The notes under the pieces were generated by a model. It had not been told where the DNA came from, did not search any database, and was given only the letters and a program-made list of their open reading frames with translations. Below are positions 5,757 to 62,015 of a DNA stretch of 64,000 nucleotides, piece by piece. Position 1 is the stretch's first letter; every line of letters begins with the position of its first letter. The translations under genes were made by a program, and so were the position numbers. Source of the stretch: Sphingobacteriaceae bacterium (GTDB lineage: Bacteria > Bacteroidota > Bacteroidia > B-17B0 > Aurantibacillaceae); the NCBI GenBank assembly GCA_002319075.1, contig NVQB01000001.1:4650001-4714000 (forward strand). Reading direction: 5' to 3'.

Positions 5757-6235
5757 TGTTCTCGACTACGCTCGAACTGACATCCTGCTATGCTCGAACT
5801 GTTCTCGACTACGCTCGAACTGACATCCTGCTATGCTCGAACTGTTCTCGACTACGCTCGAACTGACTCCCGCTATGCTCGAACTGACATCCTGCTATGC
5901 TCGAACTGTTCTCGACTACGCTCGAACTGACATCCTGCTGCGCTCGAACTGACTCCTGCTATGCTCGAATTGTTCTCGACTACGCTCGAACTGACTCCTG
6001 CTATGCTCGAACTGACATCCTGCTGCGCTCTCATTGACATTTTGCTATGCTCGCACTGACGTTGCTTGCGCTATTGCTGGCCTTAACATCCGCTGGATGT
6101 TAATCCTGCTCGAACTGTTCTCGACTACGCTCGAACTGACATCCTGCTGCGCTCGAACTGACATCCTGCTGCGCTCGAACTGACATCCTGCTATGTTCGA
6201 ACTTACATCCTGATACGCTCAGCAAGACAACATCT
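5757..6235. repeat. Tandem array of about 21-22 bp intergenic repeats
   Basis: About 480 bp of degenerate tandem units with two alternating forms: GCTCGAACTGACATCCTGCTAT (shown in two parts: GCTCGAACTGACATCC + TGCTAT) and GCTCGAACTGTTCTCGACTAC. The core GACTACGCTCGAACTGACA recurs throughout. Units toward the right end are more degenerate. No long spacers separate the units. A perfect hairpin interrupts the array (6083-6103). The array fills the gap between two convergent genes and begins immediately at the stop codon of the 5199-5756 gene. Confidence 0.9.
6083..6103. repeat. Perfect 9-bp inverted repeat inside the tandem array
   Basis: TTAACATCC, a 3-nt loop GCT, and GGATGTTAA. It interrupts the regular repeat units, between two blocks of the array. 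Confidence 0.7.
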
Positions 6236-6264
6236 GGCAATGTCACTTCGTGGTAGTGGCGAAA

Positions 6265-6302
6265 ATAAAAAAACCGTTTCGATCTGAAACGGTTTTTTTT
6301 AT
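6265..6302. terminator. Bidirectional rho-independent terminator
   Basis: Stem AAACCGTTTC (6271-6280), loop GATCT, stem GAAACGGTTT (6286-6295), with an A-run on the left and a T-run on the right. It can serve both the rightward 435-5756 operon and the leftward aconitase gene. Confidence 0.9.
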
Positions 6303-6322
6303 GTGTTGAGGTTTGTTATAAA

Positions 6323-8590
6323 TTAAGCTTTGATACTTGCTCTGATAATGTTAAGAGCGCCACCGGCTTTAAACCATTCAATTTGTTGCTGGTTATAAGT
6401 ATGATTTACACTTATTTCTTCCTTACTTCCATCCGCGTGGTTTAATACCAGTGTTAATGGTGTATTTGGAGCGAAAGAGGTCAAACCAATAATGTCAATT
6501 GTATCGTCTTCTAAAATTTTATCGTAATCCGATTTTTCTGCGAAAGTTAAACCCAACATGCCTTGTTTTTTCAAATTGGTTTCGTGAATACGAGCAAATG
6601 ATTTTACAAGTACAGCACGTACACCTAAGTGACGAGGTTCCATTGCCGCGTGTTCACGTGAAGATCCCTCGCCATAGTTCTCATCGCCCACAACAATAGA
6701 TCCGATGTTTTGTGCTTTGTAAGCACGTTGAACAGCAGGCACAGCTTCGTGTTTACCGTTTAATTGGTTTTTAACGCTGTCAGTTTTTTCGTTGAAGAAA
6801 TTAACGGCGCCAATAAGCATGTTGTTAGAAATGTTATCTAAGTGTCCGCGGTATTTTAACCATGGACCCGCCATAGAGATATGGTCTGTAGTACATTTCC
6901 CTTTTGCTTTAATAAGAAGTTTTAGTCCTTTTAAATCAACACCTTCCCAGGGAGTAAAAGGATCTAACAATTGTAAACGATCACTTGTTGGAGAAACATT
7001 TACCTGAACACCACTTCCATCTGCTGCAGGTGCCTGGAATCCTGCGTCATCCACAGCAAATCCTTTTTTCGGTAATTCATCTCCTTTTGGCTCATCTAAT
7101 TTTACATTTTCTCCTTTTTCATTTACTAAAGTATCTGTTAAAGGATTAAAAGTAAGATCACCTGCAATAGCCATAGCTGTTACGATTTCAGGTGAGGCTA
7201 CAAAAGCAAATGTGTTTGGATTACCATCGGCACGTTTCGCAAAGTTTCTGTTGAAAGAGTGAATGATGGTGTTTTTTTCTTGTTTTTCGGCACCCATTCG
7301 GTCCCACATGCCAATACATGGTCCACAAGCGTTGGTAAATACTTTTGCTCCGATTTCATCAAAAACATCTAAAAATCCATCACGTTTAATCGTGAAACGA
7401 ATTTGTTCTGAGCCTGGATTGATCAGGTATTCTGATTTTGATTTTAAGTTTTTTGCGGATACTTGTTTTGCCAGGCTTACTGCGCGAGAAATGTCTTCAT
7501 ACGATGAGTTAGTGCAAGATCCTAAAAGTCCCACCGATATTTTTAAAGGCCAACCATTTTTAATAGCCTCTTCTTTTAATTTTGAAATAGGAGTCGCTAA
7601 ATCCGGGCTGAAAGGTCCGTTTACATGCGGCTCTAGTTCAGATAAGTTAATTTCGATAATTTGATCAAAATATTTATCAGGATTTGCATACACTTCAGGA
7701 TCTGCTGTTAAATGCTCGCGGATACCATTTGCTAATTCAGCAACGTCGGCACGACCAGTAGCTTTAAGGTAACGCTCCATAGAATCGTCGTAACCAAAAG
7801 TTGAAGTAGTAGCTCCGATCTCAGCGCCCATATTACAAATAGTGCCTTTACCTGTGCAGCTCATTGAAGTTGCACCTTCACCAAAATATTCAACTATTGC
7901 ACCTGTTCCACCTTTTACAGTAAGAATACCAGCTACTTTTAAAATCACATCTTTTGGCGCTGTCCAACCGCTTAATTTTCCTGTTAACTTAACGCCAATT
8001 AATTTTGGAAATTTTAATTCCCATGCTAAGCCTGCCATCACATCGCAAGCATCAGCTCCACCAACACCAATTGCTAACATACCTAAACCACCGGCATTTA
8101 CCGTGTGAGAATCAGTACCAATCATCATTCCACCTGGAAAAGCATAGTTTTCTAAAACTACCTGGTGAATGATACCTGCTCCTGGCTTCCAGAAACCAAT
8201 TCCGTATTTATTGGAAACAGATCCTAAGAAATCAAATACTTCTTTACTTTCTTTATTAGCAAAAGCTAAATCTTCAGCGGCGCCATTTTTCGCTGTGATT
8301 AAGTGATCACAGTGTACCGTAGAAGGTACTGCTACTTTTGGTCTGCCTGCCTGCATAAATTGCAGTAAAGCCATTTGGGCAGTTGCATCCTGCATAGCAA
8401 CTCTGTCTGGTGAGAAGTCAACATATGATTTTCCTCTTTCAAAAACATCCGGACTTTGATCGCTGTGTAAGTGCGAATAAAGAATTTTTTCTGTAAGTGT
8501 TAAAGGGCGGCCGACCAATTTGCGGGCGGCTTCAACTTTAGAAGGTAATTGTGCGTAAACCTTCTTAATCATGTCAATATCAAAAGCCAT
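6323..8590 (-). CDS. acn: Aconitate hydratase (mitochondrial-type)
   Basis: 755 residues, the length of the mitochondrial-type aconitase family. It converts citrate to isocitrate in the TCA cycle using a [4Fe-4S] cluster. The cluster cysteines are visible: C359 in [14 protein letters not shown], and C422 and C425 in [12 protein letters not shown]. Other family signatures are [23 protein letters not shown] near 158-180 and the swivel-domain active-site loop [19 protein letters not shown] in the last quarter. The start [10 protein letters not shown] is natural for this family. It is monocistronic as far as can be seen; convergent with the repeat protein operon and separated by 167 bp from chorismate synthase. 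Confidence 0.97.
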
Positions 8591-53860: not shown

Positions 53861-54436
53861 CTATATAACACATTCGTTTATATCAAGCTTTATTTTTTTA
53901 TTCAAGATTTTTTTTCTTAAATAAGACCCGGCATTATTAGTTTCTTTTGATAATTCCGCCTTAATGGAATCCTTAAATTTCAGAACATTTAGAAAAACCT
54001 TTTCGTTGCAATAACCAAAATCATTAGCGTATTTCCATTGAATCTGTTGAATTGTCTTACACGAAAACGATTTTAATTTACCTTTGAAATCTTCGTCAAT
54101 CTTAAGCTTATATATTGGTGTGTTGAAAAAATCATCCCAACCATGATCAAGTGCTTTTTTAATTAAGCTAATTTGAAAAATTTTAACAATCATTTTTTTG
54201 TAATTTTCATAGTTGTCATGTAGCCATTTTACAAGGGTATCTATAAGATGCTGTGTAATCAAATCCCTCTCATAGAACATTTCTAATGCCTTACTATTAA
54301 TTAAAAAATTATTGTCCCGGTAAATTTCAATAGCGATAACTTCTTTTTTGTTCATTGTATTTGTGTAGGTTTTCCATTCAGACCAAAAGTCTTCATAACG
54401 TCCGTACCAAACTTTTAATTGTTCTAATTGCAACAT
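53861..54436 (-). CDS. Hypothetical protein
   Basis: 191 residues, helical and charged, no signal peptide, membrane segment or recognised domain. The first third contains YGRYEDFWSEWKTYTNTMNKKEVI and the last KKILNKKIKLDINECVI. It is transcribed away from the 54581 regulator and into the other one, and may belong to the signalling locus by position only. Confidence 0.55.
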   Translation of the reverse strand: MLQLEQLKVWYGRYEDFWSEWKTYTNTMNKKEVIAIEIYRDNNFLINSKALEMFYERDLITQHLIDTLVKWLHDNYENYKKMIVKIFQISLIKKALDHGWDDFFNTPIYKLKIDEDFKGKLKSFSCKTIQQIQWKYANDFGYCNEKVFLNVLKFKDSIKAELSKETNNAGSYLRKKILNKKIKLDINECVI

Positions 54437-54580: not shown

Positions 54581-55270
54581 ATGAAAAAAATAAAAATGAT
54601 GGTTGCAGAAGACCATAAACTTGTTAGAGAACTACTTTTCAAAGAGATTCCATTGTATTCTGATCGAGTTGAAATGGTTGGCGCGGCCAAAAATGGAATC
54701 GAATTGCTTCAATTGTTAAAGGAACATATACCGGATATAATACTTCTTGATATTTACATGCCTGAAATGGATGGCTGGAAAGTACTTAAGGTTCTTCAAA
54801 CTGATTATCCAAATATTAAGACAATAATGTTAAGCAGTGAATTCGATACCCTTACAGTTAAAGAAGCGATTTTGAAAGGAGCTCGCGCTTATATTGACAA
54901 GTTAGATGGGACAATGGAGGAGATAGTAGCAGCGATTGATAGCGTTTCTGAGGATGGATTTTACTTCAATGATTTGATTGCACAGGAAATAATAATTAAG
55001 CTCAGAAGTGGAAAGGACATTTCATCATTAGAAGGCGAGTCGTTTTCAGATAGAGAAGTAGAAATAATGAGGATGATTTGTGACGGAATGCAAGTTAAAG
55101 AGATTGCACATAGTATGAATATTAGTGCAGGCACGGTTAAATATCATAAAGCAAATGTATTTCGAAAAACTGAAAGTAAAACAAACATGGATTTACTAAA
55201 GTATGCGATAAGAAAGGGCATATTTAATAACAATATTCAGCAGCCAAAACCGCGCAAAAAACGAGATTAA
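54581..55270 (+). CDS. NarL/LuxR-type response regulator
   Basis: 229 residues. Receiver with E10/D11 and D57 (DIILLDIYMPEMDGW), then HTH with FSDREVEIMRMICDGMQVKEIAHSMNISAGTVKYHKANVFRKT. A short basic tail (QQPKPRKKRD) ends the protein. It stands between two hairpins sharing CTAGC/GCTAG arms and precedes the coupled signalling operon. Confidence 0.93.
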   Translation: MKKIKMMVAEDHKLVRELLFKEIPLYSDRVEMVGAAKNGIELLQLLKEHIPDIILLDIYMPEMDGWKVLKVLQTDYPNIKTIMLSSEFDTLTVKEAILKGARAYIDKLDGTMEEIVAAIDSVSEDGFYFNDLIAQEIIIKLRSGKDISSLEGESFSDREVEIMRMICDGMQVKEIAHSMNISAGTVKYHKANVFRKTESKTNMDLLKYAIRKGIFNNNIQQPKPRKKRD

Positions 55271-55277
55271 TAATCCC

Positions 55278-55300
55278 CTAGCTACAGGGCTAGTTTTTTT
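55278..55300 (+). terminator. Short terminator-like hairpin after the regulator gene
   Basis: CTAGC (55278-55282), 6-nt loop, GCTAG (55289-55293), T-run 55294-55300. The arms resemble those of the hairpin at 54491. Confidence 0.6.
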
Positions 55301-55401: not shown

Positions 55402-55701
55402 ATGTTTACAGACTTCGACCAAACAATCACACTCGCACAAGCAGTAGCATTAACCCAAGCTTTCCGAGCAGCAAACCCTCCAACAGCGGTAAAGGCTGAA
55501 GTATCAGGAAAAACCATAATCGAGCAAATCCTTGCGCAAACCGGTTGCAAGGGGATTCGGGTCTATAAGGGTTTAGACGCAACCGGAGTACCTTCTAACG
55601 TATTGGTAGGAATTGATGCAAATGGCAACGACATGGTTGATGGTGTATTGGGAAATAGGTCAGTTAAAGACCTGGGTTCACCAAACGTTTTGAATTCTTG
55701 A
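55402..55701 (+). CDS. Small conserved protein, first gene of the signalling operon
   Basis: 99 residues, soluble, no signal peptide. N-terminal amphipathic helices (FDQTITLAQAVALTQAFRA), then KTIIEQILAQTGCKGIRVYKGLDATG and NVLVGIDANGNDMVDGVL, the shape of a small one-domain protein with a central Cys49. Proteins of this general pattern are found in many Bacteroidota genomes without known role. Its stop overlaps the start of the 7-TM gene (TGATG), so expression is coupled. The operon context suggests a signalling or structural partner. Confidence 0.7.
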   Translation: MFTDFDQTITLAQAVALTQAFRAANPPTAVKAEVSGKTIIEQILAQTGCKGIRVYKGLDATGVPSNVLVGIDANGNDMVDGVLGNRSVKDLGSPNVLNS

Positions 55702-56351
55702 TGCTTTCAAAAGATTTTTATAATTCACTTACTTACATTTCCATTATAAGTGTAATTATTCCAATTGCAGCCTGTTTTTACATGCGAAAAGCCCTTAGCA
55801 TAACACTAAGGGCTTTATTCGTTTACCTGTGTATCTGTCTTCTTTCGGACATTTTAAGTTATTTTTATTCGGAGTATGACGAAATTCAAAATCTATTTCG
55901 AAATGGTTTTACAGTGATAGAATGCGTTATTATATCACTTATTTACTATATAGAATTTAAAGATCAAAAAATAGAAACTTTCGTGATTGCTTCTTTATTG
56001 CTATTCATAGGACTTTCGTTGTGGCAGTTTCTGTATTTAAATTTATCTACAAAAATCGAGACAATTGCTAGCACTTTTGAGGCGGTTATTTTGAGTATTT
56101 TTTCTATAATTTACCTTTTAAAATTTCTATTTACTTCGGATGTAAATAGTATAAACTATCAATATTTCTTTTGGATTGCTTTCGCTAACCTTTTATATTT
56201 TGGAACGGCTTTTATTTTTTTTATGTTTAGAAATTTTATTAAAAATGCGCCGGACGAAAGCTCTGATTTTATTTGGGGGATTCACGATGGTATTAATGTT
56301 ATTTGTAATACTTTATTTACCATTGCGATATGCAAGACACAAAGGAAATAA
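55701..56351 (+). CDS. Seven-transmembrane protein, candidate sensor
   Basis: 216 residues from the ATG at 55701 with seven predicted membrane helices (examples SIISVIIPIAACFYM, FVYLCICLLSDILSYFY, TFEAVILSIFSIIYLL, FFWIAFANLLYFGTAFIFFMF). No soluble domain, no known family. Its end overlaps the histidine kinase gene by 22 bp. Since that kinase has only one membrane helix and no sensor domain, this protein is the probable receptor. Confidence 0.75.
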   Translation: MLSKDFYNSLTYISIISVIIPIAACFYMRKALSITLRALFVYLCICLLSDILSYFYSEYDEIQNLFRNGFTVIECVIISLIYYIEFKDQKIETFVIASLLLFIGLSLWQFLYLNLSTKIETIASTFEAVILSIFSIIYLLKFLFTSDVNSINYQYFFWIAFANLLYFGTAFIFFMFRNFIKNAPDESSDFIWGIHDGINVICNTLFTIAICKTQRK

Positions 56352-57148
56352 CACTATTTATTGTTTTAACTGTTTTTGCAATTCTTTTTCTTATAGTTCT
56401 TATTGCTGTAGTTATTCTTTGGTCAAAGCGCAAAATTTTAGAAAAAGAAAATAAGTTCGCTTATTTAGAGAAGCAAAGACAAATAGAGCTGATTAAAACC
56501 ATTGTTGAAACAGAAGAATCACAAAAGACAAAGATTGCAAGCGATCTCCACGATCAAATAATACCAGTTCTTACTTTAACGGCATTAAACCTTATAACAG
56601 AAATTGAAAAATTAGAAAAAGGCAGCAACGATTTTTCAAAAGTTAAGACTACAATAGACAATTTTGCTAATCTTGCTGATAATGTTAGAGAAATTGCTCA
56701 TGGGATAATTCCGAAAATGTTTACTACGTTCGGTTTACTTAAATCCATTGAAATTGCACTAAAACAATTGAACAACGAAAATATAAAGGCTGTTTTTAAA
56801 GATAATTCACTTAGCAATATAACAATTCCATTATCTCTTAATAAACAATTAACCATTTATAGAATATTTTTAGAGCTTTTAACTAACTTAGTTAAGCATG
56901 TAAAATATAATAATCTAGTTGTTTCTCTTGAAGAAATGCCAATATGTTTTAGTTTAGTATTTACACACGATGGAATTGGAATTACAAACCAAACAATTGA
57001 AAACCTTACAAATCAGAGTACCGGAATAGGGCTAAAGTCATTAAAAAGTAGAGCGTTATCACTTAACGCAACAATTGATTATTCGATTGAAAAAGAGGTG
57101 TCATTTATAATATTGAGAGTTCCGATAGATCATGAAATCATTAATTAA
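56330..57148 (+). CDS. HisKA_3-type sensor histidine kinase
   Basis: 272 residues. One membrane helix (about 8-31), coiled coil, H74 in KIASDLHDQIIPVLTLTALNL, then HATPase with ELLTNLVKHVKYNNLV (N-box), DGIGI and STGIGLKSLKSRALSL (G-box). HisKA_3 kinases pair with NarL/FixJ regulators, and the next gene, overlapping by 17 bp, is one. It has no periplasmic sensor region, so input probably comes from the upstream 7-TM protein. Confidence 0.92.
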   Translation: MQDTKEITLFIVLTVFAILFLIVLIAVVILWSKRKILEKENKFAYLEKQRQIELIKTIVETEESQKTKIASDLHDQIIPVLTLTALNLITEIEKLEKGSNDFSKVKTTIDNFANLADNVREIAHGIIPKMFTTFGLLKSIEIALKQLNNENIKAVFKDNSLSNITIPLSLNKQLTIYRIFLELLTNLVKHVKYNNLVVSLEEMPICFSLVFTHDGIGITNQTIENLTNQSTGIGLKSLKSRALSLNATIDYSIEKEVSFIILRVPIDHEIIN

Positions 57149-57767
57149 AATAGCACTGGCAGAAGATCATGGTACTCTGCGACAAGGTTATATAAGCTTG
57201 TTAGAAGCTAAACAGAAATTCGAAATACTTTTTGATGTTAGTAACGGTAAAGAGCTGTTAGAGAAACTCAAAGAAATTAGACCTGAAATATTATTATTGG
57301 ATTTAGAAATGCCTGTAATGACAGGACAAGAAGTTCTAAGAGTTATAAGATCGAAATACCCTAAATTAAAGGTGATTATTGTGAGTGGCCACTTTCAAAA
57401 GGATTATATAGTCGAGTGTTTTAAACTTGGAGTTAAAGGGTTTTTAAGAAAGGAGTATAAAATTGACAAGATTGTTGAAGCGATTGAAACTACCCATATT
57501 GCAGGTGGATATATTGATAATGAAGTAGCACTCATTTTAGCTAGCGAACTCAGCACACTTTACGACACTCAAAAACTGGATCTAACCGAACACCAAACAG
57601 AAGTCTTAAAATTAATTTGTAAAGGCCACACAAATAAAGAAGCTGCTGAGATTTTGGAAGTTTCGGTGGCTGCTATTAAATTCCACCGGGCAAATATTAT
57701 GGATAGAACCAAGTGTCAGAATTTACAGGACTTGATGGCGTTCGCTATATTTAATAAATTGATTTAA
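57132..57767 (+). CDS. NarL/LuxR-type response regulator
   Basis: 211 residues. Receiver with E11/D12 and D57 (EILLLDLEMPVMTGQE), then HTH with LTEHQTEVLKLICKGHTNKEAAEILEVSVAAIKFHRANIM. It is the cognate partner of the overlapping kinase. Two similar regulators within 4 kb (53105, 54581) lack their own kinases and may be further targets. Confidence 0.94.
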   Translation: MKSLIKIALAEDHGTLRQGYISLLEAKQKFEILFDVSNGKELLEKLKEIRPEILLLDLEMPVMTGQEVLRVIRSKYPKLKVIIVSGHFQKDYIVECFKLGVKGFLRKEYKIDKIVEAIETTHIAGGYIDNEVALILASELSTLYDTQKLDLTEHQTEVLKLICKGHTNKEAAEILEVSVAAIKFHRANIMDRTKCQNLQDLMAFAIFNKLI

Positions 57768-57803
57768 ATAAGAATTACCGTGGCTGACAAAACAGTAAAT
57801 CAT

Positions 57804-59045
57804 ATGACTGAAAATAAGTATAACGAAGCTAAAAAAGACGACAAGAATCTAATTGTTATTTCTATTTCAATATTTTTCTTAATTATAGCTTTATGGTTAT
57901 TGACATTGTATACATTGAGCGGAAAGACAGAGACGGCCAGAGGTACTTTCGGCGATATGTTCGGTGGTGTTAATGCACTATTTTCAGGTTTGGCTTTTGG
58001 AGGAATAATTATTACAATTCTCCTACAGCGTAAAGAGCTGGCTTTGCAGCGAGAGGAGTTAAAAGATACCAGAGAAGAGTTGAAGCGATCAGCGGATGCA
58101 CAAGACGCGCAAAATACAGTCTTGTTAAGTCAGCAATATCAAACAACTTTTTTTAGTTTACTTAATGCGCATACTACATTAATTGAAGGCCTAAACTTTC
58201 ACAATAAGATAGGTATTCAAGGCCTATCTAATTTCTACAATGAGCTTTTCCACGATACTTCAAATTACAATGAACGGATAAAAAAGAGGCATTTTGAAAG
58301 CGCGAAATTCACTAATAATAATCCCTTCTACACCTTACAAAATTATAGCCATGCATTTCATTCGTTTTTTGGTGACTTAATTACTTTAATAAAAGTAGTA
58401 GACGAGAAACTGCCAGAAACCTTATACTATGACATTCTATTCAATTATTTAACTGTTTATGAAAAATTTATAGTCGGATTATACTGTGATTGTATTGAGG
58501 ACGAATACAGCAGCTTTATAATTAATCATCAGTATGACTTTCTCAAATATTATAAAGCTCAGAAATCGAAATACAAACTTGAACCTTCTAATTATTTCCC
58601 TAATATAGTTATTCAGAGAAAGTCAATAAATACTGTATACATCAACGAGACTCTAGCTCCTGACAATTTTTTTGAATTTAATATTTGGATAGAATTTGAC
58701 TTCTATTCACGCGCTTTAACTGTTGAAAAAGTTAATATACATTTATATGATTACGACAGTGATAATAATGTAAAAACACTGTTTCAGAAAACCATTGACG
58801 GGTCTGCTCCACCTGCAATAGGGAATTGGCAGGATAATTATGAAGTCGATCTTACCAGATTTGTAAGTGAAGAAATTATTAAAAGTCAAAACGGCTATTA
58901 TTACGTCGATTTTAATTTTCATTTTAAATATCAGTTACAAAAATATACAGTTCTTTACAGAAGCAATTTTAACTTGCTTACTAATCCACCGATAGTTAAA
59001 GACCGGAATGAGGGGAGAATGTTAACTTTCCTTCATGGGGAGTAG
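57804..59045 (+). CDS. Putative phage abortive infection protein (putAbiC type)
   Basis: 413 residues from the ATG at 57804 (a GTG at 57780 would add eight). Two N-terminal membrane helices (VISISIFFLIIALWLLTLY and ALFSGLAFGGIIITILL), a coiled coil (LALQREELKDTREELKRSADAQ), then the putAbiC core TTFFSLLNAHTTLIEGL, LQNYSHAFHSFFGDLITLIKVVDE and YYDILFNYLTVYEKFIVGLYC. Membrane-anchored putAbiC proteins are presumed to act against phage. It follows the response regulator by 36 bp in the same direction, so it could belong to that operon. Confidence 0.85.
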   Translation: MTENKYNEAKKDDKNLIVISISIFFLIIALWLLTLYTLSGKTETARGTFGDMFGGVNALFSGLAFGGIIITILLQRKELALQREELKDTREELKRSADAQDAQNTVLLSQQYQTTFFSLLNAHTTLIEGLNFHNKIGIQGLSNFYNELFHDTSNYNERIKKRHFESAKFTNNNPFYTLQNYSHAFHSFFGDLITLIKVVDEKLPETLYYDILFNYLTVYEKFIVGLYCDCIEDEYSSFIINHQYDFLKYYKAQKSKYKLEPSNYFPNIVIQRKSINTVYINETLAPDNFFEFNIWIEFDFYSRALTVEKVNIHLYDYDSDNNVKTLFQKTIDGSAPPAIGNWQDNYEVDLTRFVSEEIIKSQNGYYYVDFNFHFKYQLQKYTVLYRSNFNLLTNPPIVKDRNEGRMLTFLHGE

Positions 59046-59142: not shown

Positions 59143-60276
59143 ATGCTATTTGAAAGTAAAGAACGATATGATAATGCAATTGGCTCCCAGTCAGAAAGTC
59201 AATATGACTTTTTAGATCGATTCCCTAATGAAGAGTGCGAGAAAATAAGAAACTGCTTAAATGAGTGGTTTTCTGTTTATCCCACTGCTGAACAATCTGA
59301 ACTCAGGACTCGATTTAAAGATTCATTTTCGCCTGCATTTTATGAACTCTATATCTATACTCTATTCATTAAACAAGGCTTTAAACTATCATGTCATCCT
59401 GAGATTTTAGGGTCCCTAAAGCGACCAGACTTTTTAGCTACAAAAGGGGGCATCCAATTTTACATTGAAGCCACAGAAGTTAATCCATCAATGACAAAGA
59501 AGGGCGTTAATAATCTTAAAAATTCTTTATACGATGCATTAAATAAAATAGAGATTAGAGGCATGCTATTTAGTATTGAGGAATTTTCTTTAAAAACGTC
59601 AAATCAACCAAATAGTAATTTAATTGTAAAATTTTTCAAAACTGAGTTGGCTAAGCATTCTTATCAAGAAGTGAGTTATAATTTGATTAATAATCATCAA
59701 AAAACTACTATCAAATATGAAGATTCGGCTATTCTGGTCATAATTTCATTAATTCCTGTGATAGAGAATTTCAAAGAAAACAAAATCGCTCATCCAATAG
59801 GTATTTTTCCCGCTGAGGAATATGAAAGTCCTACAGAGTCTATAAAAAATTCAATAATAAAAAAGTCAAATAGATATGGCGCTTTGGATAAACCATTGAT
59901 TCTCTGCGTTAATTCACCTTACTCATTTGGATTTTCTGAAATATTAGTGAATGATGTATTCTACGGTGCAAACAAAATTACGTATTCGCTCGATGCACCC
60001 CATAAAGACGAGAAGATGGAAAGGTGCTGGGAAGGAGTATATGGGAGTCCAAAAAATCCAAAGCTAAAGCGAGTTTCCGGTGTATTAATATCACATGTGA
60101 CCGCAAGTTCAATGTTGTCAAATAATTCTTGGTTATCTAAAAATCCTTTCAGCAGCAAAACACTTGATTTTGATTTATTATCCTTATCCTATTCAACGGT
60201 ACAAGACAACAGAATAAAAAAAATTGCAAACAAATCTATTCAAGATATTTTATTGCCTGATCAAATTATGAAATAA
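59143..60276 (+). CDS. Orphan protein with PD-(D/E)xK-like nuclease motif
   Basis: 377 residues. N-terminal third: SPAFYELYIYTLFIKQGF with E68, then HPEILGSLKRPDFLATKGGIQFYIEATEV with P95-D96 and E109-A-T. This is the usual E...PDF...xEAT layout of restriction-like nucleases, with Thr in place of the usual Lys. The rest is a mixed alpha/beta region of unknown family (NSPYSFGFSEILVNDVFYG; WEGVYGSPKNPKLKRVSGVLIS). No methylase is next to it. Defence role is inferred from context. Confidence 0.65.
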   Translation: MLFESKERYDNAIGSQSESQYDFLDRFPNEECEKIRNCLNEWFSVYPTAEQSELRTRFKDSFSPAFYELYIYTLFIKQGFKLSCHPEILGSLKRPDFLATKGGIQFYIEATEVNPSMTKKGVNNLKNSLYDALNKIEIRGMLFSIEEFSLKTSNQPNSNLIVKFFKTELAKHSYQEVSYNLINNHQKTTIKYEDSAILVIISLIPVIENFKENKIAHPIGIFPAEEYESPTESIKNSIIKKSNRYGALDKPLILCVNSPYSFGFSEILVNDVFYGANKITYSLDAPHKDEKMERCWEGVYGSPKNPKLKRVSGVLISHVTASSMLSNNSWLSKNPFSSKTLDFDLLSLSYSTVQDNRIKKIANKSIQDILLPDQIMK

Positions 60277-60500: not shown

Positions 60501-62015
60501 TTAAAAAGAAATTTTATCAAAAGCATCTATATTACTTGCCCTTTCTTCGTTCCATGCGTCTTTCGTCTTATTAATATTTGTGAAGAAGTTTGCGATACTT
60601 GTGATTATTTTTTCTACGGTTTTATCGTGAAATTTATATGCTGTGATGTAAGTGGTAATTTGATTTTGCTTTTTATCCTCATAACCAGTATACTTAAAGT
60701 CAAAGAGGTTTTTGGCAAGACCTAAACCAAATTGTGCTTGAAAAATGGTGATGAGAACCCCAAAAGAAACGCCACGAACATCTAGAGATTTAAAGTGGAT
60801 CGAAAGGGCGATAATGTCGGCATGCTGAAAGTTTATACTATAATGCGTGCTGTATTTATCCTGTTGAGTAAAAGCATCAATAAAACTGAAAACTGAGCGC
60901 TTATTTTCACGCTTTGTTGTTTGTAGCACATCATTTAAGGAAAATATTTTCTTACTATCAGCTGCTTTTACTATTTCAATTTCCAATTCGTCTCTGACCG
61001 TGTGATAAAAGTAGTCTCCACCATTTCCCTCCGTAATTTTATAGTTATCTAAGTTTACCGACTTTACCCAGCTATCTTTATTTTTTGCAATTTGGACCTT
61101 CAGTTCTTCGAAAACCTGTTTGCGAATTTCTAACGGAACGTCAGGGAAGTGTTCTTTGCCTATTTCAGTTTTCTTTAAATCCTTTTTATTTTCCATAGTT
61201 TTATTAGGTTTAATTTTCTCAGAAATACCGACTTTTTTTGAGGAAGCTTTTACTTTTTGAGTTTCGGTAATAATCGCAAATGGATAGAGACCTATCGCTC
61301 TACTCTCAATGACAGGCGTCTGTTTGAACTTACTGTCTTTAGCAGTTTCTCTAGTTACCGAATCCATTATTCTATTTACGGTAAGTGTGCCTTCTTCATA
61401 GTTTTTATCATTTCTTATAGCGCTAAGAAAATGATGAGTAAAGCGGCCATGCTGCAAGTTGCCTAGCTCTGTTGCTGACTCATCTTCTGCGGCAGCAAAC
61501 ATAAAACATATTCCCTTACTCTTATTTAAATAGCTAGTAATTATTTCTTTGGAATTTTCTTTGGTACTTCGAGAAAGAACTTTTGCACCGGATTCACAAG
61601 CATCGATAACATAGCATTGATATTTTGGCTGGAGTGCACTAATTTTATCAAATATTGCTCTCATTTCTACAAAGCTGTCATTAAATAGTAGGGAAGAATT
61701 TTCAAAGGAAAATTTACCGTGACCAGCAAAGTAAAAAAATAAAGAATCCTCATTTTGGATCATTTTTTCTTTTATTTCGTCAAGAGCTTTTTCAAAATTC
61801 TTCCAAATATCCTTAATCGATAATTCTTTGCTACTTGTGATTAAATAAATATCATCTTCCAAAAAACCGCACCGCTCGATCATCACCGATGAAACTGCGT
61901 TAGCATCATTTACACAGAACTTCAGAGGCCTGTCATCATAATCGTTGATTCCTATGATTATAGCGAATCTCCTATCGAGCACTGGTATAGTTTCGTTACG
62001 TGATTTCTTATTCAT
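60501..62015 (-). CDS. Caspase family (peptidase C14) protein with unknown C-terminal domain
   Basis: 504 residues. Residues about 15-255 form a caspase/metacaspase p20-p10 fold with catalytic H99 (SLFFYFAGHGKFSFE) and C140 (YVIDACESGAKVLS), RRFAIIIGINDY at the start and the substrate-pocket FAAAEDESATELGNLQHGRFTHHFLSAI. A Lys-rich linker (260-300) leads to a C-terminal domain of about 200 residues (FPDVPLEIRKQVFEELKVQIAK ... FQHADIIALSIHFKSLDVRG ... AKNLFDFKYTGYE) that I do not recognise. Prokaryotic caspases often serve as effectors of defence systems. It is divergent from the nuclease gene. Confidence 0.92.
   Translation of the reverse strand: MNKKSRNETIPVLDRRFAIIIGINDYDDRPLKFCVNDANAVSSVMIERCGFLEDDIYLITSSKELSIKDIWKNFEKALDEIKEKMIQNEDSLFFYFAGHGKFSFENSSLLFNDSFVEMRAIFDKISALQPKYQCYVIDACESGAKVLSRSTKENSKEIITSYLNKSKGICFMFAAAEDESATELGNLQHGRFTHHFLSAIRNDKNYEEGTLTVNRIMDSVTRETAKDSKFKQTPVIESRAIGLYPFAIITETQKVKASSKKVGISEKIKPNKTMENKKDLKKTEIGKEHFPDVPLEIRKQVFEELKVQIAKNKDSWVKSVNLDNYKITEGNGGDYFYHTVRDELEIEIVKAADSKKIFSLNDVLQTTKRENKRSVFSFIDAFTQQDKYSTHYSINFQHADIIALSIHFKSLDVRGVSFGVLITIFQAQFGLGLAKNLFDFKYTGYEDKKQNQITTYITAYKFHDKTVEKIITSIANFFTNINKTKDAWNEERASNIDAFDKISF

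Follow-up and report, generated by a model that had tools for sequence, protein, structure and literature searches.

Many short histidine kinases in the Bacteroidota and related phyla lack a sensor domain, and their inputs are not known. Among the described systems closest to the locus reported here are intramembrane-sensing kinases that work with an accessory membrane protein, such as LiaFSR, in which LiaF is the accessory protein (PMC3543457). Receptor kinases of the BtsS/LytS type have seven helices and a periplasmic N-terminus, with the ligand held inside the membrane domain (PMC10653868), and in QseG-QseE signalling is controlled directly by QseG, an accessory (lipo)protein whose gene accompanies that of the kinase (PMC12691602). 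In the operons of ABC importers, internal terminators follow the binding-protein gene in the form of intergenic stem-loops (PMC9045158).

The locus consists of four intact open reading frames on the + strand, encoding in order a small protein, a seven-helix membrane protein (7TM), a histidine kinase and a response regulator, and spans 55402-57767 of the window, by which is meant the whole 64-kb stretch of DNA that was analysed. It is regarded here as a two-component system whose receptor, made of two proteins, is exchangeable and previously undescribed. A literature search of openly licensed papers returned no description of the 7TM, of the small protein or of the four-gene layout, in keeping with an earlier note on this DNA whose author knew of no system with exactly this arrangement.

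Components and borders of the operon

The genes and the upstream border are as follows.

55278..55293, + strand: terminator-like stem followed by T7, from a consensus scan; 6 pairs, 3 of them G-C; a consensus match only
55402..55701, + strand: ORF for a small soluble protein of 99 aa, predicted to be a dedicated partner of the 7TM
55701..56351, + strand: seven-helix membrane protein of 216 aa, N-out/C-in by its AlphaFold2 model and positive-inside charge bias
56330..57148, + strand: one-helix histidine kinase of 272 aa, NarL/UhpB-type, no sensor domain (HATPase_c E 2.7e-8; HisKA_3 0.018, sub-threshold)
57132..57767, + strand: NarL/LuxR-type response regulator of 211 aa (Response_reg 2.4e-24, GerE 1.3e-12)

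The ORF coordinates bear out the earlier observation that every gene junction overlaps, by 1, 22 and 17 bp; the ORF listing opens the 7TM gene at a TTG three bases before the ATG from which its 216 residues are counted. Upstream, the stem at 55278..55293 putatively closes a solo regulator gene (54581-55270) and parts it from the four-gene operon. The case for an inverted repeat at the operon promoter, sought as a regulator motif, is imperfect (p ~0.04 by shuffle), and an Rfam scan of the operon gave no match at the gathering score, the best being a sub-threshold Thr_leader (E 0.18, 23.6 versus 55 bits). The gene at 57780-59045, 12 bp downstream, has no counterpart in relatives and was therefore not counted as a fifth member of the operon.

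The kinase and regulator form a two-component pair of a NarL/UhpB-type kinase and a NarL regulator, an assignment in which the HisKA_3 match is weak and the residues of both proteins were read by eye. More specifically, the kinase has its histidine, N-box and G-box residues (H74, N186, D214/G215/G217 and G232/G234, with an H-box of LHDQI) and a single membrane helix near the N-terminus; the regulator has receiver and LuxR-type helix-turn-helix domains, with D57 present. The best NCBIfam models for the kinase are UhpB/MctS-like and far under their cut-offs, and the LiaS model is not reached (34.9 bits against a cut-off of 450). The earlier description of the kinase as sensor-less holds, since it has one membrane helix and no sensor domain; one such helix is likewise predicted in 96 of 111 homologues.

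The AlphaFold2 model of the 7TM contains seven membrane helices (mean pLDDT 93.7, pTM 0.90). Counts of lysine and arginine across 199 sequences, at 1.6-2.4 per inner loop or C-terminus versus 0.9-1.1 per outer loop, place the N-terminus outside and the C-terminus inside. Scans against Pfam and NCBIfam found nothing above any cut-off, no Pfam family was found in 53 members, and a profile search of PDB sequences gave no clear relative. The Pfam models of 7TMR-DISM, the LytS-type sensors (5TM-5TMR) and HisKA_7TM match 0 of the 53 members at E <= 0.01, and the 7TM and the kinase are separate reading frames in the loci examined, in contrast to the fused layout of 7TMR-DISM and LytS-type sensor kinases. 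The 7TM gene lies outside the characterised sensor families covered by Pfam, NCBIfam and PDB sequences, a point on which the earlier proposal depended. A Ceramidase or HlyIII identity, each suggested by a single member of 53 at E 0.003-0.005, was judged a chance result.

Structural matches of the 7TM model in the PDB are mostly GPCRs within the top 50, with LYCHOS and rhodopsins among them. The first-ranked match, 7xp6, has a Z of 13.2 at 3.5 A over 205 residues, and helical bundles reach a Z of about 13 by arrangement alone. Because the best Foldseek E is only 0.1, homology to GPCRs is not claimed; as modelled, the protein appears GPCR-like in shape only. The microbial rhodopsin criterion of a retinal lysine in helix 7 finds no lysine among the columns conserved in >=60% of the 199 sequences, and in the window copy the lysine of helix 7 is restricted to the cytosolic end.

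The small protein likewise gave nothing above any Pfam or NCBIfam cut-off, as did the 43 relatives scanned, and its profile found no clear relative among PDB sequences. In an alignment of 43 members the invariant residues are T18, R22, G51, R53, Y55 and D77. Its AlphaFold2 model has a pLDDT of 88.5, and a solved fold for that model, sought by Foldseek and VIA, was not found (best Z 3.8, to CopG), which does not prove a new fold and means that no function can be assigned from the fold. The window copy has no signal peptide, and its reading frame, measured from stop to stop, has only 105 codons.

Other genes surround the operon. The solo NarL-type regulator (54581-55270, +) is preceded by a divergent gene (53861-54436, -) for a 191-aa protein with no assigned family, and homologues of both in the same place at L067, L073, L077 and L087 (loci are cited by L numbers) indicate that in this subclade the conserved neighbourhood extends beyond the operon. 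Farther downstream, 59143-60276 (+) and 60501-62015 (-) give weak matches to PD-T7-5/PD-T7-1 and caspase defence models and may constitute a small defence patch beside the operon.

Conservation of the pair and exchange of its outputs

The genome of the window holds a second full copy at 2.783-2.786 Mb, identical in order and overlaps, and, at 4.13 Mb, a third and more distant copy, in which the upstream partner has 288 aa and carries a CPPNC motif close to the C-terminus. Among genomes of the family the small protein occurs in 39 of 87 and the 7TM in 35 of 87; in a sample of 296 well-assembled genomes of the phylum the figures are 33 and 57, respectively. When the match lists for these 296 genomes were compared by hand, 43 of the 45 small-protein matches adjoined a 7TM match, and of the other two one is a full operon (G127, contig 22) and one lies at a contig end. 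Of the family loci that could be evaluated, 50 of 51 have the small gene ahead of the 7TM gene, as do 32 of 33 loci from the phylum. The 80 named loci place the unit in the Bacteroidota (Flavobacterium, Mucilaginibacter, Pedobacter, Pontibacter, Ohtaekwangia and Chitinophaga) and beyond them in Ignavibacteria, Edwardsbacteria and Zixibacteria, with Pontibacter lucknowensis DM9 and Pedobacter steynii DSM 19110 among the cultured carriers; no relatives were found on viral contigs or plasmids.

For 156 distinct small proteins, a 7TM gene lies directly downstream in 138, a kinase comes next in 119 of these 138, and a regulator then follows in 109. Most exceptions are loci at the end of a contig, tandem copies of the small gene, 7TMs that have diverged beyond the threshold or satellite copies, and some involve other output proteins. 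The earlier note had proposed a search for co-occurrence with the kinase/regulator pair; run here, it finds that the small protein and the 7TM are not mostly apart from kinases. Overlap of the 7TM and kinase genes is seen in 104 of the 119 junctions, most commonly by 22 or 25 bp. The four-gene layout is therefore far beyond chance, having been seen again in dozens of diverged genomes. The view that a two-component pair stands beside unrelated genes, brought together by accident or by shared transcription, could point to the small-7TM pairs without a kinase, as the kinase association is not absolute; it is nevertheless exceedingly improbable and already contradicted by the survey, in which the order is fixed across phyla, the 7TM-kinase overlap recurs and different outputs are swapped in behind the same pair.

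The commonest output after the small-7TM pair is a HisKA_3 kinase with a NarL regulator. In other loci the pair is followed by PAS/GAF-HisKA_3 kinases (L286, L195), by a HisKA-HATPase-REC hybrid kinase (L236) or by a PAS-GGDEF-HD-GYP protein (L294); at L257 a LytS-type His_kinase follows a diverged partner and its 7TM. In five named loci (L306, L307, L313, L320, L322) no signalling gene comes immediately after the pair. The pair itself may be doubled, as in L209 (small-7TM-small-7TM-kinase), and some loci place two or three 7TM genes ahead of one kinase.

That outputs are swapped while the small-7TM pair ahead of them stays the same argues more strongly than anything else for the 7TM and its small partner as the input, and it upholds the earlier proposal that the 7TM is the obvious one. 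Very probably, then, the 7TM serves as the input of the kinase. Permeases play such a role for BceS/GraS-type kinases, and the 7TM might by analogy be a transporter or an enzyme whose activity the kinase senses; the small size of the protein, the polar residues in its helices and the weak single-member Ceramidase and HlyIII matches would suit this. The widely conserved 7TM columns contain no conserved HxxxH or metal motif, however, and tandem 7TMs ahead of one kinase suit receptors at least equally, which leaves a transporter or enzyme improbable.

Evidence tying the small protein to the 7TM comes from pairwise divergences across 111 complete loci, in which the partial correlation is 0.46 between small protein and 7TM, 0.07 between small protein and kinase and -0.18 between small protein and regulator (sd 0.04 on 70% subsampling); because operon genes have a common history, this co-divergence is suggestive only. 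Residue covariation between small protein and 7TM (139 pairs, MI-APC) gave top couplings above those of shuffled pairings, and among these neither the tail nor the body of the small protein favours the outer or the inner half of the 7TM, so that neither a side nor an interface is given. The small protein is likely a direct partner of the 7TM. The earlier suggestion that it is a subunit of the 7TM draws support from adjacency, co-divergence and duplication of the pair; as such it may bind a ligand, gate or modulate, the roles then named.

Individual loci provide further observations. Three tandem family 7TM genes precede a single kinase at L187 (2257-4632) and L216 (2888-5362), and may correspond to heteromeric receptors. 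The kinase-less pair of Ohtaekwangia koreensis (L306, 5867-8299) adjoins a DUF4134 gene of conjugative-transposon type, suggesting that the pair can travel on mobile elements. At L313 a gene resembling PrnB (monodechloroaminopyrrolnitrin synthase family; 5908-7002) lies downstream of the kinase-less pair.

A terminator-like hairpin behind the small gene

A second kind of conserved element lies within the operon.

55788..55816, + strand: putative internal attenuator within the 7TM gene, a terminator-like RNA hairpin whose 11-bp stem is perfect and followed by a U-rich tail

The stem is one of four perfect short-loop stems of that length in the 64-kb window, and the segment 55776-55838 folds with a minimum free energy of -20.8 kcal/mol (z -4.9). 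Neither this hairpin nor the wide distribution of the operon was mentioned in the earlier note.

When 111 7TM genes were folded in 18 windows and compared with synonymous-codon shuffles, a clear excess of structure appeared only at codons 22-44, with a mean z of -0.90 and 23% of values below -2, against means of -0.24 to +0.16 in the other 17 windows. A stem-only score was significant in 20% of cases at 7TM codons 20-52, versus 0-14% for the other segments tested across the four genes. Where the small and 7TM genes are spaced apart, the hairpin is found in the spacer, usually with a T-run. More specifically, family loci with a spacer of at least 28 bp have an intergenic hairpin in 20 of 22 cases and those with a gap of less than 12 bp an intragenic one in 13 of 26; kinase-regulator spacers, taken for comparison, have one in 3 of 30. 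A significant hairpin is present in 33 of 50 small-7TM pairs of the family and in 18 of 82 elsewhere; it is common and not universal, none being significant in 17 of the 50 and 64 of the 82. Spacer and intragenic hairpins occur together in 0 of 132 pairs.

Covariation and pairing were assessed in 12 aligned intragenic hairpins, picked for having a hairpin. In this pre-selected set both sides have changed in 10 of 13 base pairs, the covariation score is reached by 0 of 500 shuffles and abolished by sliding the partner by one column, and 140 of 156 pairs are Watson-Crick versus 92 +/- 5 in synonymous shuffles. The stem thus varies in sequence with its pairing kept and its tail U-rich, which fits an RNA hairpin better than a protein-binding DNA site. 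Such a hairpin would most simply be a partial terminator: a stem-loop with a U-tract, conserved in place after the first gene, corresponds to the sequence description of an internal terminator, partial termination itself being predicted. Spacer hairpins end a median of 17 bp ahead of the 7TM start, and this position, at the end of the spacer or else within the gene, leaves little or no room for a later separate promoter. Expression of the receptor, kinase and regulator would accordingly need read-through, and on balance the small protein is probably made in excess through partial termination, the effect that internal terminators behind binding-protein genes have in ABC importer operons (PMC9045158).

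The partner protein and a model of the receptor

The upstream partner of the 7TM is often larger in other lineages. By N-terminal hydropathy and lipobox, judged by eye, 24 of 181 classified partners have a signal peptide, a lipobox or an N-terminal anchor (for example L204, L223, L225, L233, L244 and L259), whereas the other 157, among them the window copy, lack both an export signal and the space for one. Profile comparison joins the partners with export signals to the small family, with probabilities of 99.5 (A1-A5), 97.3 (A1-A4) and 96.8 (A5-A4), and many of them share its CPPxC or Pro-Pro tail at the C-terminus. Signal-peptide labels change 17 times on the 7TM tree, which is poorly resolved, so that "several" changes are claimed at most. 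Either the side of the membrane on which the partner acts varies with lineage, or the forms without a signal are released from the cell by another route.

The C-terminal CPPxC motif is present in most relatives of the small protein and has been lost from the window copy; one or both tail cysteines are gone there and in the close relatives L067 and L077. Beside the operon in Mucilaginibacter (L317, 2674-3609, -; also L327, L330, L334 and L338), a divergent gene encodes a protein of about 310-330 aa that matches the small-protein profile and carries a CPxxxxCP motif.

Partners with predicted export signals raise the possibility that the small protein is itself a released signal, exported without a signal peptide, made in excess for that reason and perceived by the 7TM as its receptor in autocrine or cell-cell fashion. 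The hairpins suggest excess production, the 24 partners with an export signal or anchor are linked by profile to the small family (probability about 97-99.5), and the conserved CPPxC tail could be the part recognised. Set against this are the 157 partners without an export signal, the lack of any protease or exporter gene accompanying the operon and the loss of CPPxC in the window copy. Known pheromone precursors have a hypervariable tail, in contrast to the conserved tail of the small protein. A released signal is accordingly held to be quite unlikely.

A different possibility is negative regulation from the cytosol, with the small protein keeping the 7TM-kinase complex off until a stimulus arrives. 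The protein is soluble and without an export signal, the C-terminus of the 7TM and the kinase helix would meet on the cytosolic side, and an excess over the receptor would suit a stoichiometric inhibitor. The related partner domains predicted to be extracytoplasmic in other lineages and the near-zero partial correlation with the kinase both speak against inhibition of this kind, and it is considered rather unlikely, if less so than release from the cell.

The favoured reading, held with moderate confidence, is an exchangeable receptor made up of two proteins, the small protein and the 7TM, that feeds a two-component output, with a partial terminator after the small gene. The 7TM would detect a stimulus in the membrane or at the outer face, and its conformational change would pass to the single helix of the sensor-less kinase through contacts between membrane helices; the kinase would then phosphorylate the NarL-type regulator, which would act on DNA. 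We infer that the small protein binds the 7TM, not the kinase, and that it may set or enable the response of the 7TM much as a binding protein does for its membrane partner. The partial terminator, here within the 7TM gene, would hold the receptor, the kinase and the regulator at lower levels than the small protein. Counting against this explanation, the signal peptides and lipoboxes on the partners of other lineages fit poorly with a cytosolic role here. A broader version, in which the operon represents an unnamed, phylum-wide class of GPCR-like seven-helix receptors that require a dedicated small protein ligand or partner, oversupplied by means of an attenuator inside the receptor gene, and that have interchangeable kinase or c-di-GMP outputs, is possible and put forward tentatively.

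A separate 7TM receptor with an obligatory soluble partner would offer a specific, testable input for a large class of sensor-less kinases, and a single sensor pair joined to varied output enzymes offers a natural system for studying how a receptor communicates with a one-helix partner. The internal hairpin putatively illustrates that signals for operon stoichiometry can sit in coding sequence and shift between spacer and gene. The parts of this undescribed receptor class are mostly found together, across the Bacteroidota and other FCB phyla.

Comparison with known systems places the operon near several of them. Like GPCRs and microbial rhodopsins, the 7TM is predicted to form a seven-helix, N-out bundle, but it has no sequence relationship to them, no widely conserved retinal lysine and no G protein. 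BtsS also has seven helices and an outside N-terminus; its 7TM domain is built into the kinase, whereas the 7TM of the operon is encoded separately, comes from another, unnamed family and has a soluble partner. The predicted lipoprotein partners in relatives of the present system recall the accessory (lipo)protein of QseG-QseE, yet QseG binds the kinase, while in the operon co-variation links the small protein to the 7TM rather than to the kinase. As in ABC importer operons, a stem-loop lies just downstream of the first gene and the soluble component is in predicted excess over the membrane components; the operon differs in being sensory rather than devoted to transport and in carrying its hairpin inside the coding sequence where the genes overlap. 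The LiaFSR system of the Firmicutes is similar in having a NarL-family kinase whose sensor domain is minimal or absent, a neighbouring gene for an accessory membrane protein and a NarL-type regulator. LiaF, however, is short and inhibits LiaS, whereas the accessory protein here is a 7TM that has its own soluble partner and also serves other kinases and c-di-GMP enzymes.
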